This document shows positions 32,797 through 37,824 of a stretch of DNA of 42,864 bases, in pieces. The position numbers were made by a program, and so were the translations under genes. This stretch comes from Sulfuricurvum sp. (GTDB lineage: Bacteria; Campylobacterota; Campylobacteria; Campylobacterales; Sulfurimonadaceae): assembly GCA_024762585.1 (NCBI GenBank), contig JANTHE010000004.1:1-42864 (forward strand), given 5' to 3'. The notes under the pieces are model-generated. The model did not search any database. It was not told the DNA's origin and saw only the letters and a program-made list of their open reading frames with translations. How positions within the stretch are numbered: position 1 is the first letter of the stretch; every line of letters begins with the position of its first letter.

Positions 32797-32877
32797 AAAA
32801 TGCTCCCTGTTCATATTGAGGGCGATTTTATCCTAAAATGCTACAATTGCGCATAAATATTTCAAAAAAGGGTGTGC

Positions 32878-33621
32878 GTGGAAAAACAACTGGTAGGTTA
32901 TATCACGACCGGATTTCCGGACAAGGATTTTACCATCGACCTGGCACTCTCGCTGGGAGAAAACGGGGTTGATTCGCTGGAGCTCGGCATCCCGTTTTCC
33001 GATCCCGTTGCCGATGGCCCTGTCATAGAGGCCGCCAATTACATCGCGCTGGAGCACGGATTTCGCTTCAAAGATGTTCTGGATGTTTCTCGTGCTGTCG
33101 CTTCGCGTGTCGACACACTGTGGATGGGTTATTTTAATCCGTTTTACCAGTTTGGCATGGATAACGTTCTGCGTGAGGCCAATGATCTCGGTGTCTCGGG
33201 GATGATTATTCCGGACGTGCCGTACGAGGAAGCTCTTGCATACGCCGGCGCATTTAAAAAACATGCGCTCAGCAATATCTGTTTTGTCGCACCTACAGAT
33301 AGCGATGCACGAATCAAAACGGTCGTTTCCGAAGCGCAAAAGTTCATTTATCTTGTGGCATACGCCGGCATTACAGGTGCTGGGAAAAGCGAGGAGCTCA
33401 CCGATACTATCTCATCGATCCGGCGCCATACCAAGACGCCGGTGTATGTCGGTTTCGGGGTAAACGAAAAGACCGCAAAATCCAAGGCACGGGGAGTAGA
33501 CGGTGTTATTGTCGGCTCTGCCTTCATCAATGTCTTGCTGCGAGAAGACCTGTCATTGTCAGAAAAGATCAATCACTGCTGCAGTATTGCTAAAAATATC
33601 AAACAGGCTATCAACGAGTAG
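32878..33621 (+). CDS. trpA: Tryptophan synthase alpha chain
   Basis: GYITTGFPD, LELGIPFSDPVADGPVIEAAN, GMIIPDVPYEEA, VYVGFGVNE, DGVIVGSAFI; two candidate GTG starts (32872, 32878). Confidence 0.95.
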   Translation: MEKQLVGYITTGFPDKDFTIDLALSLGENGVDSLELGIPFSDPVADGPVIEAANYIALEHGFRFKDVLDVSRAVASRVDTLWMGYFNPFYQFGMDNVLREANDLGVSGMIIPDVPYEEALAYAGAFKKHALSNICFVAPTDSDARIKTVVSEAQKFIYLVAYAGITGAGKSEELTDTISSIRRHTKTPVYVGFGVNEKTAKSKARGVDGVIVGSAFINVLLREDLSLSEKINHCCSIAKNIKQAINE

Positions 33622-33663
33622 AATCGTTTCGGTTTTTTAGCCCCACTTTATCGCCGCTCCGTT

Positions 33664-33669
33664 ATAATA
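33664..33669 (+). promoter_or_regulatory. Candidate -10 box of the trpA-purD intergenic RNA
   Basis: CGTTATAATACTTTTATAAGCC; box about 10 nt before the structured region. Confidence 0.5.
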
Positions 33670-33675
33670 CTTTTA

Positions 33676-33826
33676 TAAGCCTGACCGGTTCGAGCTCTCG
33701 CATATCAGGGGGTTCTACAGATTCACGTTACGGATGGGAGTAGACGTTTCCGTGTGCCGGTGATCTCGTTTGAGGGCGTTGCCCGAGAGACCGCCGCCTG
33801 ACGAAACGCTCAGTCTGTATTTTTTT
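33676..33826 (+). ncRNA. ssrS: Candidate 6S RNA (Campylobacterota 'purD RNA' type)
   Basis: Non-coding intergenic stretch directly upstream of purD; closing-stem elements CTGA/TCAG, GGT/ACC (33687-89/33790-92), CTCTCG/CGAGAG (33695-700/33784-89); apical hairpin ACGGA/TCCGT (33730-34/33749-53) with CAC/GTG; unpaired central region; 3' T7 tract at 33820-826. Confidence 0.6.
33798..33826 (+). terminator. Candidate terminator at the 3' end of the trpA-purD RNA
   Basis: CTGACG-aaa-CG(C)TCAG imperfect hairpin followed by TCTGTATTTTTTT. Confidence 0.45.
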
Positions 33827-33956
33827 GGCTTTGAGAACCAAAGCTATCTTGCGGAACGGCCGGCCGGGTGGACGATAGCCATAATCTGTTTTAATGCAAG
33901 TGGAGTCTTCTCTTTTTGCATCAACACAGACACAATCAGTACAAGGATCGGACAGA

Positions 33957-35222
33957 ATGAATATCATGGTCATCGGGAGCGGCGGACGCGAATATGCCAT
34001 CGGACGGGCGCTGTCGCAAGACGCCGCGGTCGAAAAGCTCTATTTCGCTCCCGGGAACGGAGCGACCCCGGCGTTGGGTGAAAACGTGGACATCAAGGAG
34101 TATGACGCGCTGGCGGAGTTTGCCAAGGACCAAGCGATCGATTTGACCATCGTCGGCCCCGAGGCTCCTTTGACGGAGGGAATTGTCGATGTTTTCAAAG
34201 CCAGAGAATTGACCATTTTCGGACCCTCAAAAGCTGCGGCGCAACTGGAAGGTTCCAAGGTCTATATGAAAAACTTCCTGGCCAAGTACGGCATCCCGAC
34301 GGCGAGTTATATCGAAACGGACCATATTGATACCGCGTTCAAATTCATCGACACGCTGGGCACCCCGGTCGTCGTCAAGGCCGACGGGCTTTGCGCGGGC
34401 AAGGGGGTCATCATCGCTCCGACACATGACGAGGCCAAGAAGGCGGCGTCGGAGATGCTCAGCGGCAAGGCATTCGGCGAAGCGGGCAAGAAGGTGATCA
34501 TCGAAGAGTTTCTCGACGGATACGAGCTCTCCATGTTCGCCATCTGCGACGGCGAAGATTACATTCTGCTGCCGGCGGCGCAGGACCACAAGCGGCTTGA
34601 AGACGGTGATCAGGGGCCGAATACCGGCGGGATGGGCGCTTATGCCCCGACGCCGCTGGTAAACGACGAGATCTACGAGAAAGTCAAGGCGAGTGTCATT
34701 CGCCCGACGCTCGACGGTATGCAGGCCGAGGGCGCCCCGTTTGAAGGCGTTTTGTTCATCGGGCTGATGATTGTGAACGGTGAACCGCTGACGCTGGAGT
34801 TCAATGTGCGTTTCGGCGACCCGGAGTGCGAAATTCTGATGCCGCTTCTCGCCACCCCGGCCAGCGAATTGTTTTACAAAGCGGCGACGAAGCAGCTCGA
34901 TACGCTGAAAGTGCAGTTCAAGGACGAATATGCGGTCGGCGTCGTCATGGCAAGCCGTGACTATCCGTATAAAAGCAGCGAACCCGCCGAGATCGTCGTG
35001 GACGAGATCGTGCATACCGAACTGGCCGAGCACTCGCATATTGCCTATGCCGGGGTGAGTGAAATGGATGGGAAACTGTTCGCGACGGGCGGCCGGGTGC
35101 TGGTCTGCGTCGGGACCGGCGAGAGTATCCGCCAGGCGCGCGACCGGGCCTACGCCCTGTGCGGACAGGTCCATTTCGCCGGGAAAAAACTGCGTACCGA
35201 TATTGCTTATCAGGCACTCTAG
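33957..35222 (+). CDS. purD: Phosphoribosylamine--glycine ligase (GAR synthetase)
   Basis: [57 protein letters not shown] upstream of ATG. Confidence 0.97.
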
Positions 35223-35225
35223 ATT

Positions 35226-35675
35226 GTGAACGAGACGATCGAAACGTTGCTTCGGCACCATAATTTTGAGCTGGCATCCATCCCAAAAAGGGGTGTGGCT
35301 TTTATCATCGATGAGCTGTTGCTCAGCATACTGTTTATGTTTGTGCTGTGGGATACCATATCGCAGGCGGATACATTCGAATCTTTTCTTTTTATCACCA
35401 ATGCCTATACGTTGGAGTATCTGGGTGTCAAGATCCTTTACCAGACGATCTTTGTCGCGCTTTACGGCGCATCGCTGGGTAAGATGGCGATGCGTGTTCG
35501 CGTTGTTTCCGTCCTGGACGGTGACATCCCCGGCTGGTCGGCGGCATTCAACCGCGCCGTCTTCCGCATTATCAGCGAGATTATCTTTTATCTTGGCTTT
35601 ATCTGGGCGATGTTCGATCCTGCCAACCAGGCGTGGCATGACCGGACCGCGCGTACCGTCGTAATCAATGGCTAG
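35226..35675 (+). CDS. RDD family membrane protein
   Basis: ASIPKRGVAFIIDELLL and GKMAMRVRVVSVLDGDIPGWSAAFNRAVFRI. Confidence 0.88.
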   Translation: MNETIETLLRHHNFELASIPKRGVAFIIDELLLSILFMFVLWDTISQADTFESFLFITNAYTLEYLGVKILYQTIFVALYGASLGKMAMRVRVVSVLDGDIPGWSAAFNRAVFRIISEIIFYLGFIWAMFDPANQAWHDRTARTVVING

Positions 35676-37824
35676 GGTCGCGCTGCTTTTTTGCATACTG
35701 CTGGCACTTGCCAAGGCAGAGGAACCTATCGAGTTCTATGCCACCCATTTAGACTCGAATCTTACCGGACTGCATGCCACGGGAGATGTCCTTGTACTCT
35801 ACGGAGACTATTATCTGAGTGCGAATGAGGCCCTTTATAACCGCACGTCTAACACGCTCGAACTTTTCGGAAACATTGTGGCGATGCAAGGTTCGGAGTA
35901 CTTTGCGATGGGCGACTACGTTCTGCTGGATGTGCCGAACAAACAGCGTATCTTTTCGCCCTTTTTCATGCTTGACCGTCATACCAATGTCTGGATGAGT
36001 TCGCTGCGTTCCGGTGCTCGCGATAAGAACTTTACGATCAGAAAAGGGATGGTCTCAGGCTGCGATCCGAATGATCCGCTTTGGGTGCTTTATTTTTCAA
36101 GTGCAGATTTTAACAGCGATACGCGCTGGATGAATGTCTATAACGCTTATTTGAAACTGTATGGCATTCCTGTGTTTTATTTTCCATATTTTGGCTACTC
36201 TCTGGATAATCGTCGCCGCAGCGGTTTGTTGGTGCCGTCGTTTGGTATATCCAGTACTGAGGGCTTCTTTATTGAACAGCCAATGTATCTGGCATTGGAT
36301 CCTTCGTGGGACATAGAACTGAAGCCGCAGATTCGAACGGAGCGGGGAGAAGGCGTTTATGGCAGATTACGTTTTGTTGATTCGAACGTATCCAAGGGTG
36401 CAATTAATGTTGGATATTTTCAGGAAAAATCTTCTTATGCAAACGCGTTTGACCTTGCGAATCAGAACCATTACGGCTTTGATCTGGATTATATGAATAC
36501 AGAGGTGCTGCAGCGCTGGCTGGCACTCGATCTGGTCGGCCAATCAGGACTGTATGCTGATATCAGCTGGATGAACGATATCGACTACATCAACCTTGCT
36601 TCCAATGACGCCGTCAATTTTGCGACATCAAATCAGGTCTTGTCTCGTGTGAATCTTTTTTATAATGAAGAAGATGTTTATTATGGAATGAACTTCCGAT
36701 ACTACCTGGATCTGAATAAAAAGAGTAATGCCGATACGCTGCAAAATCTACCGATCTTGCGTTATCATCGCTATATAAATACTTTTTTGGACGAACACCT
36801 TTATTACACCTTCAATACCCGTGTCAACAACCTTTATCGTGAGTCAGGTGTCAAGGCCGTTGAAGGTGATGTTGATCTCCCAGTGACAGTACAGGGTTCC
36901 ATATTTGATGATTACCTTCTGCTCTCGTACAGTGCGCGTTTTAACGGCAAGTATATTACGTTCAGCGGAGAACCGCCGCCATCTAACGTTATTTCGAAAG
37001 GGCAGTATAACACTGGTCTATTCGGACGACTTTACCATGCGTTGAATGCAGGGACACAGATGACGAAAGGCTTTGAAGGTTTCAGTCATACAGTCGGTCT
37101 GGATGCCACCTATACCAAGGCGGGAATTGATGATTCCACGGGATATTATGAGGACAAAAAAGAGATATGCAGCCGGTCGGATGCCTCGAGCAATCCTGAA
37201 TGCGATTTTTATACGATCAGTGATATTCAAGAATCGCTCGATTTGAAGTTCAGCCAGTTTTTTATGAACGATGATGGTGAACAGCTACTTTTTCACCGGG
37301 TGACACAGAGACTCTCGTTCGATAAACTGCAAGATCAGCTCAGTGAACTGGAGAATGAAGTGGACTGGCGTATCCTGCCGCACCTGACGCTCTATTCGGA
37401 TATTTTTTATAACTATCAGCGTAATCTCCTGTCGAAAATGCTCAGTGCCGTGCGCTACGATGATCAGGGCTTCGGAATTGGTATTACGGATCTTTACGAG
37501 GATATTGTCGGCGAGGAGGGGACGGAATATGTCAATTACATGACACTGGATGCGGAATATCGATATAATGACCATTATCGATATTTCGGGCGTTATGCCT
37601 ATGATCTGGAAGCGAGTGTCAAGAAACTGGCTGAGATCGGTTTTAGCTACACCAAACGCTGTTGGGAATTCGGCATGCGGTATGTAGAGAATAATCGGCC
37701 TATTTTGACACAGAATGAGGCTTCTTCAGTCTTTGATCGTTATGTTTATTTCACCATCAAATTGAGGCCGATAGGCGGTACGGAAGTCAATTATAAACTC
37801 AGTGACAGACTGGATGGTTCCTAA
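35668..37824 (+). CDS. lptD: LPS assembly protein LptD
   Basis: OstA-like N-terminus (LDSNLTGLHATGDVLVLYGDYYLSANEALYN), FYFPYFGYSLDNRRRSGLLVPSFG, long beta-barrel region. Confidence 0.9.
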   Translation: MARVALLFCILLALAKAEEPIEFYATHLDSNLTGLHATGDVLVLYGDYYLSANEALYNRTSNTLELFGNIVAMQGSEYFAMGDYVLLDVPNKQRIFSPFFMLDRHTNVWMSSLRSGARDKNFTIRKGMVSGCDPNDPLWVLYFSSADFNSDTRWMNVYNAYLKLYGIPVFYFPYFGYSLDNRRRSGLLVPSFGISSTEGFFIEQPMYLALDPSWDIELKPQIRTERGEGVYGRLRFVDSNVSKGAINVGYFQEKSSYANAFDLANQNHYGFDLDYMNTEVLQRWLALDLVGQSGLYADISWMNDIDYINLASNDAVNFATSNQVLSRVNLFYNEEDVYYGMNFRYYLDLNKKSNADTLQNLPILRYHRYINTFLDEHLYYTFNTRVNNLYRESGVKAVEGDVDLPVTVQGSIFDDYLLLSYSARFNGKYITFSGEPPPSNVISKGQYNTGLFGRLYHALNAGTQMTKGFEGFSHTVGLDATYTKAGIDDSTGYYEDKKEICSRSDASSNPECDFYTISDIQESLDLKFSQFFMNDDGEQLLFHRVTQRLSFDKLQDQLSELENEVDWRILPHLTLYSDIFYNYQRNLLSKMLSAVRYDDQGFGIGITDLYEDIVGEEGTEYVNYMTLDAEYRYNDHYRYFGRYAYDLEASVKKLAEIGFSYTKRCWEFGMRYVENNRPILTQNEASSVFDRYVYFTIKLRPIGGTEVNYKLSDRLDGS

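Follow-up and report, generated by a model that had tools for sequence, protein, structure and literature searches.

Campylobacter jejuni has a discrete, very abundant 6S RNA of 185 nt that is encoded upstream of purD, is among the most highly transcribed, and for which a 13-nt antisense pRNA has been reported (PMC3847290). The same paper cites a 6S RNA of Helicobacter pylori from the equivalent region upstream of purD, as well as an older prediction in which the C. jejuni region was labelled a 'purine riboswitch'. Neither growth phase nor acid shock significantly alters the level of the C. jejuni RNA (PMC3847290), which may therefore play a different role from 6S RNA in E. coli. As to mechanism, PMC8876501 describes the bubble of 6S RNA as sitting in the active site of the housekeeping holoenzyme, where pRNA synthesis on the 5' strand of the bubble unwinds the downstream helix and frees the RNA, release being aided in E. 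coli by a hairpin that forms in the bubble's 3' strand.

We analysed a 42,864-nucleotide stretch of a Sulfuricurvum sp. genome (the window), in which an original prediction, made from the letters alone, had placed a 6S RNA of the purD-motif type between trpA and purD. Its premise, that the purD motif is 6S RNA in epsilonproteobacteria, has been reported for C. jejuni in a paper that refers to a like finding in H. pylori (PMC3847290), and the 6S reading of this locus is supported by a match to the Rfam purD motif (RF01069), by matches of the Rfam 6S model (RF00013) in two relatives, by a covarying rod and by the C. jejuni literature. We consider it highly probable that a single ssrS gene upstream of purD, encoding a promoter-mimicking rod with a predicted pRNA template and release switch, explains the locus; the fold, its conservation, the promoter box, synteny and homology to 6S models are in hand. 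The kind of molecule is known. Our additions are a fold over the full length, corrected boundaries, and a direct link in sequence and structure between the purD motif and the 6S family.

The trpA-purD gap and its promoter

The expected non-coding gap between trpA and purD is borne out by the limits of both genes and their Pfam matches. The locus is summarised below, where R1 denotes a covariance model that we built from the RNAs of 16 relatives, with the window sequence among its seed.

32872-33621, forward strand: trpA (Pfam Trp_syntA), stop at 33621, 5' neighbour of the gap
33663-33668, forward strand: -10 box TATAAT, read from the sequence; expected transcription start about 33675-33677
33676-33869, forward strand: predicted 6S RNA (ssrS), about 190-194 nt; core 33679-33869 set by the closing stem, from alignment, covariation and R1
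33740-33869, forward strand: Rfam purD RNA motif RF01069 (cmscan, 79.5 bits, cut-off 41, E 1e-13 for the window)
33957-35222, forward strand: purD, start codon ATG at 33957, Pfam GARS_N/A/C, 87 nt 3' of the closing stem

The promoter box is present as predicted, one base further left than the 33664-69 first given for it. In 64 of 70 orthologues an exact TATAAT stands 5-15 nt 5' of the RNA, at a near-fixed distance; further 5' comes a T-rich, TTTAAGC-like block. A promoter scan of the window found no consensus -35/-10 pair, which is expected because promoters of the Campylobacterota group lack a standard -35. The conservation of TATAAT suggests that the 6S RNA is transcribed in this host from its own sigma-70-type promoter.

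Two other features of the neighbourhood were seen in passing. The spacer from the 6S RNA to purD contains an inverted repeat, ATGCAA...TTGCAT (33886-33925, forward strand), which at a glance is unconserved in relatives. Further downstream, 3' of purD and of an RDD-family protein, a 718-aa protein with a signal-like N-terminus (35668-37824, forward strand) is without a Pfam match at 1e-3, yet reads like an LptD-type outer-membrane protein.

Comparative fold of the RNA

Folding of 33677-33828 as a single sequence gave a stability no better than that of shuffles (z = -0.23). Lone-sequence folding being uninformative, the structural evidence is comparative, and the relatives' loci were therefore aligned: 16 orthologues of the locus, found via RF01069, form the alignment used for covariation counts (A1), and a model-made alignment (A2), which fragmented the inner helix P2, was left out of pair counting. 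Conserved complementary ends lie outside the 3' boundary of the original prediction, with CCUG(A/G)... behind the promoter and ...UUGGG or ...CCGGG at the end of the Rfam match. RNAalifold on A1 predicts 47 pairs, and 26 of these show compensatory changes. An independent count on the same alignment finds 96.4% of cells paired and 27 pairs, in 115 cells, changed on both sides; none of 500 shuffles scored as high, and sliding the partners lowered pairing to about 40-48%. In a wider set of 20 sequences the outer stem, P2 and apical hairpin hold, with 94.5% of cells paired and 17 double-changed pairs. The comparative evidence thus predicts that the RNA at about 33676-33869 is one rod made of a closing stem, a central bubble and an apical arm:

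33679-33692, forward strand: outer closing stem, 5' strand (GCCUGACCGG, UCG); pairs with 33857-33869, 8 of 13 pairs double-changed, 96.1% of cells paired
33698-33701, forward strand: second closing helix, 5' strand UCGC; pairs with 33851-33854, 4 of 4 pairs double-changed, 90.6% paired
33711-33716, forward strand: inner closing helix P2, 5' strand GGUUCU; pairs with AGAACC at 33834-33839, paired in all 16 near relatives
33717-33729, forward strand: central bubble, 5' strand, 13 nt, from the alignment fold
33730-33818, forward strand: apical arm, from the alignment fold, with the three helices that follow
33730-33734 with 33814-33818, forward strand: apical helix, 5 of 5 pairs double-changed
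33739-33750 with 33803-33812, forward strand: apical helix, 6 of 9 pairs double-changed
33756-33767 with 33787-33797, forward strand: apical hairpin, 3 of 10 pairs double-changed
33819-33833, forward strand: central bubble, 3' strand, 15 nt, containing seven Ts
33828-33844, forward strand: hairpin of the 3' bubble strand, GCUUUG-AGAAC-CAAAGC, candidate release hairpin; its loop carries the 3' strand of P2
33857-33869, forward strand: outer closing stem, 3' strand (CGG, CCGGCCGGGU), from alignment and covariation

With about 191 nt, 47 pairs, a closing stem, a large central bubble and an apical stem, the RNA has the build of a 6S rod (160-200 nt). Most orthologues measure 177-199 nt between equivalent landmarks, a few having been mis-set by the script. 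P2 changes with distance: more distant relatives have GGUCC/GGGCC or GGUCC/GGACC, including a C-G to U-A double change, and the Campylobacter-like group has GAUCC/GGGUC. A search of 61 sequences for P2 arms gave a modest excess for a sequence's own 5' and 3' arms over swapped arms (14.0 versus 12.2); this search is blunt because other short complementarities were often chosen, and the aligned counts are the better test.

A conserved structured RNA in the gap, as originally predicted, is upheld by RF01069 and by covariation over the 16 orthologues; the pairings drawn for it and its 3' end are not. The earlier fold had the RNA end at about 33826 with a rho-independent terminator, and its stems are possible pairings of the window sequence. 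Over the 16 orthologues, however, the 18 pairs of CTGA/TCAG, GGT/ACC, CTCTCG/CGAGAG and ACGGA/TCCGT (CAC/GTG was left out of the count) are paired in 63.2% of cells versus 62.0% in shuffles, without excess covariation, and we rejected these stems as a conserved fold. CTCTCG/CGAGAG moreover competes with a covarying local hairpin, AUCUCG/CGAGAG. The seven Ts (33820-33826) that were taken for a terminator tract belong to the central bubble, on its 3' side, a terminator scan of the window found none, and the closing stem, hence the RNA, reaches about 33869, so that we give this fold practically no chance of being right.

Family models and distribution in Campylobacterota

Of the two Rfam models proposed as checks on the original prediction, that of the purD motif matched and that of 6S RNA, RF00013, found nothing in this genome at a threshold as lax as E 10, which means that Rfam's own 6S family does not claim the sequence. 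At the curators' cut-offs RF01069 was the single match of the whole window against Rfam; the entire model is matched, above its gathering cut-off and at the place upstream of purD in a member of Campylobacterota. A lax Rfam search of 33400-34200 returned nothing notable beyond RF01069, and no 6S match. RF01069 leaves the 5' third of the RNA uncovered: the model starts about 60 nt inside, at 33740, lacks the 5' halves of the closing stem and of the bubble, and is typed Cis-reg. The 3' hairpin that it does model and the closing helix P2 are alternatives to each other.

At its cut-off RF00013 matched in none of 200 genomes of the class, so no second 6S RNA is in evidence. Its only matches in the 200 genomes are below that cut-off, one in each of two relatives (per-genome E 8.3e-5 and 3.0e-4); both run end to end and coincide exactly with the purD RNA, and the closing stem and P2 align in register. 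The cut-off of RF00013 sets the limits of this Rfam model; it does not delimit 6S RNAs as a kind of molecule. R1 scores 163.5 bits over the full length of the window RNA, a sequence included in its own seed. Run against a 401-base stretch, it found its best match in E. coli ssrS (988-1162, where the annotated ssrS is 984-1166 of L093), a weak match of 11.2 bits resting on the closing stem only. The RF00013 and R1 cross-matches, each weak alone, agree with synteny, architecture and the published data.

Nearly all of the 200 class genomes carry the RNA upstream of purD; RF01069 itself matches in 191 of them and in none of 14 controls. In four of the nine genomes without an RF01069 match (G006, G028, G040 and G044) R1 clearly finds the RNA. 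In another, G041, the closing stem and the promoter box can be made out by eye and model matches are only weak or partial, and G159 has a partial model match only. Two genomes of family f6, G007 (L096) and G117 (L095), carry strongly diverged copies upstream of purD, beyond the reach of RF01069, which we recognised by closing stem, promoter and position. In G174 (L094) there is apparently only a decayed 5' part, ACCCATGAGTGAAG...ACCGTATAATGAGGGTCTAG, between roughly 150 and 50 nt 5' of purD and without the apical arm or 3' strand; in its congener G165 (L068) the RNA is intact. The 6S RNA may have been lost from G174, a genome of 1.5 Mb.

pRNA synthesis, release and the link to purD

In this organism polymerase binding, the pRNA start and the release switch are predicted from the fold and from known 6S RNAs. 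The rod, with its closing stem (33679-33716 with 33834-33869), bubble (33717-33729 with 33819-33833) and apical arm, would mimic an open promoter and occupy the housekeeping RNA polymerase holoenzyme. The bubble's 5' strand would serve RNA polymerase as template, with the start probably opposite C33718, a position taken from P2 as aligned with RF00013 and from the known place of the pRNA in E. coli and B. subtilis. The predicted pRNA is 5'-GUAGAACCCCCUG-3', templated from 33718 to 33706; it would begin 5'-GUAGAACCCCC, with 5'-GUAGAACCCC as the expected start of reads antisense to 33706-33718. As it grows, the pRNA would displace the inner helix P2, the AGAACC strand so freed would allow the 3'-bubble hairpin (33828-33844) to form, and the RNA would be released. 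Because the loop of this hairpin carries the 3' strand of P2, hairpin and helix are mutually exclusive. Across 16 relatives 88.8% of the hairpin's cells are paired, with hardly any covariation, and of 61 sequences nearly all can form a local hairpin there, stronger than in composition shuffles (14.1 versus 10.7). A release switch of the E. coli type is likely here.

The bond with purD admits other readings. In 64 of 70 loci PurD starts 8-120 nt 3' of the closing stem, and this place just upstream of purD, across a short gap, would suit a purine riboswitch or leader acting in cis on purD, as would the Cis-reg type of RF01069 and the older riboswitch label in C. jejuni. We think such an element very improbable: the RNA is a closed rod with an outer stem and its own promoter, RF00013 matches it end to end in two relatives, its C. 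jejuni counterpart is a discrete and very abundant species of 185 nt (PMC3847290), and RF01069 omits the 5' third that closes the stem. A further proposal adds to the 6S reading and is no competitor of it. Modelled on E. coli ssrS-fau (ygfA), it makes the 6S RNA also the 5' part of a dicistronic ssrS-purD transcript, with purD expressed by read-through and 6S RNA released by processing; at E. coli ssrS, read-through and 3' processing were reportedly described by Chae in 2011, a paper cited in PMC8687705. The tight, conserved ssrS-purD linkage and the lack of a terminator in the window favour this arrangement, as does the spacing in Campylobacter-like loci, where only about 11-25 nt separate the closing stem from purD and leave no room for a promoter, so that read-through into purD is likely in that group. 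In the window, by contrast, 87 nt between the RNA and purD are enough for a separate promoter, and we see the chances of a dicistron as evenly balanced.

Beyond this dicistron, the 6S RNA of Campylobacterota could be the 5' part of an obligate ssrS-purD unit that couples polymerase sequestration with purine synthesis, which we hold to be unlikely. If it were true, a G-initiated pRNA would sense GTP and purD would be made by read-through, and the coupling would account for the survival of the ssrS-purD linkage in a class marked by heavy gene reshuffling. In any case the conserved linkage raises a question, open to test, on purine supply and the sequestration of polymerase.

For the 6S RNA reading that we prefer, the identity of the purD motif in this organism is settled, and a full-length, covariation-backed 6S fold is now available across Campylobacterota, for which Rfam has a truncated cis-regulatory motif and a near-silent 6S model. 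With a full-length model such as R1, annotators could give 6S RNA its correct name in the class.

Among known systems, RF01069 is matched over the whole model, which differs from our RNA in its missing 5' strand and its Cis-reg type. RF00013, the 6S family of the E. coli and B. subtilis type, is silent in this genome at E 10 and sub-threshold in two relatives; its members share the architecture, with a closing stem that carries CCUG...UUCG...CGGC...GGG. The 6S RNAs of C. jejuni and H. pylori (PMC3847290) are strongly diverged in sequence, P2 being GGUUCU/AGAACC here versus GAUCC/GGGUC in the Campylobacter-like group, and trpA is the upstream neighbour here. They are alike in length (185 nt as measured in C. 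jejuni; about 190 nt predicted here), in their place upstream of purD with a promoter just 5', and in the succession of closing stem, central bubble and apical fold.
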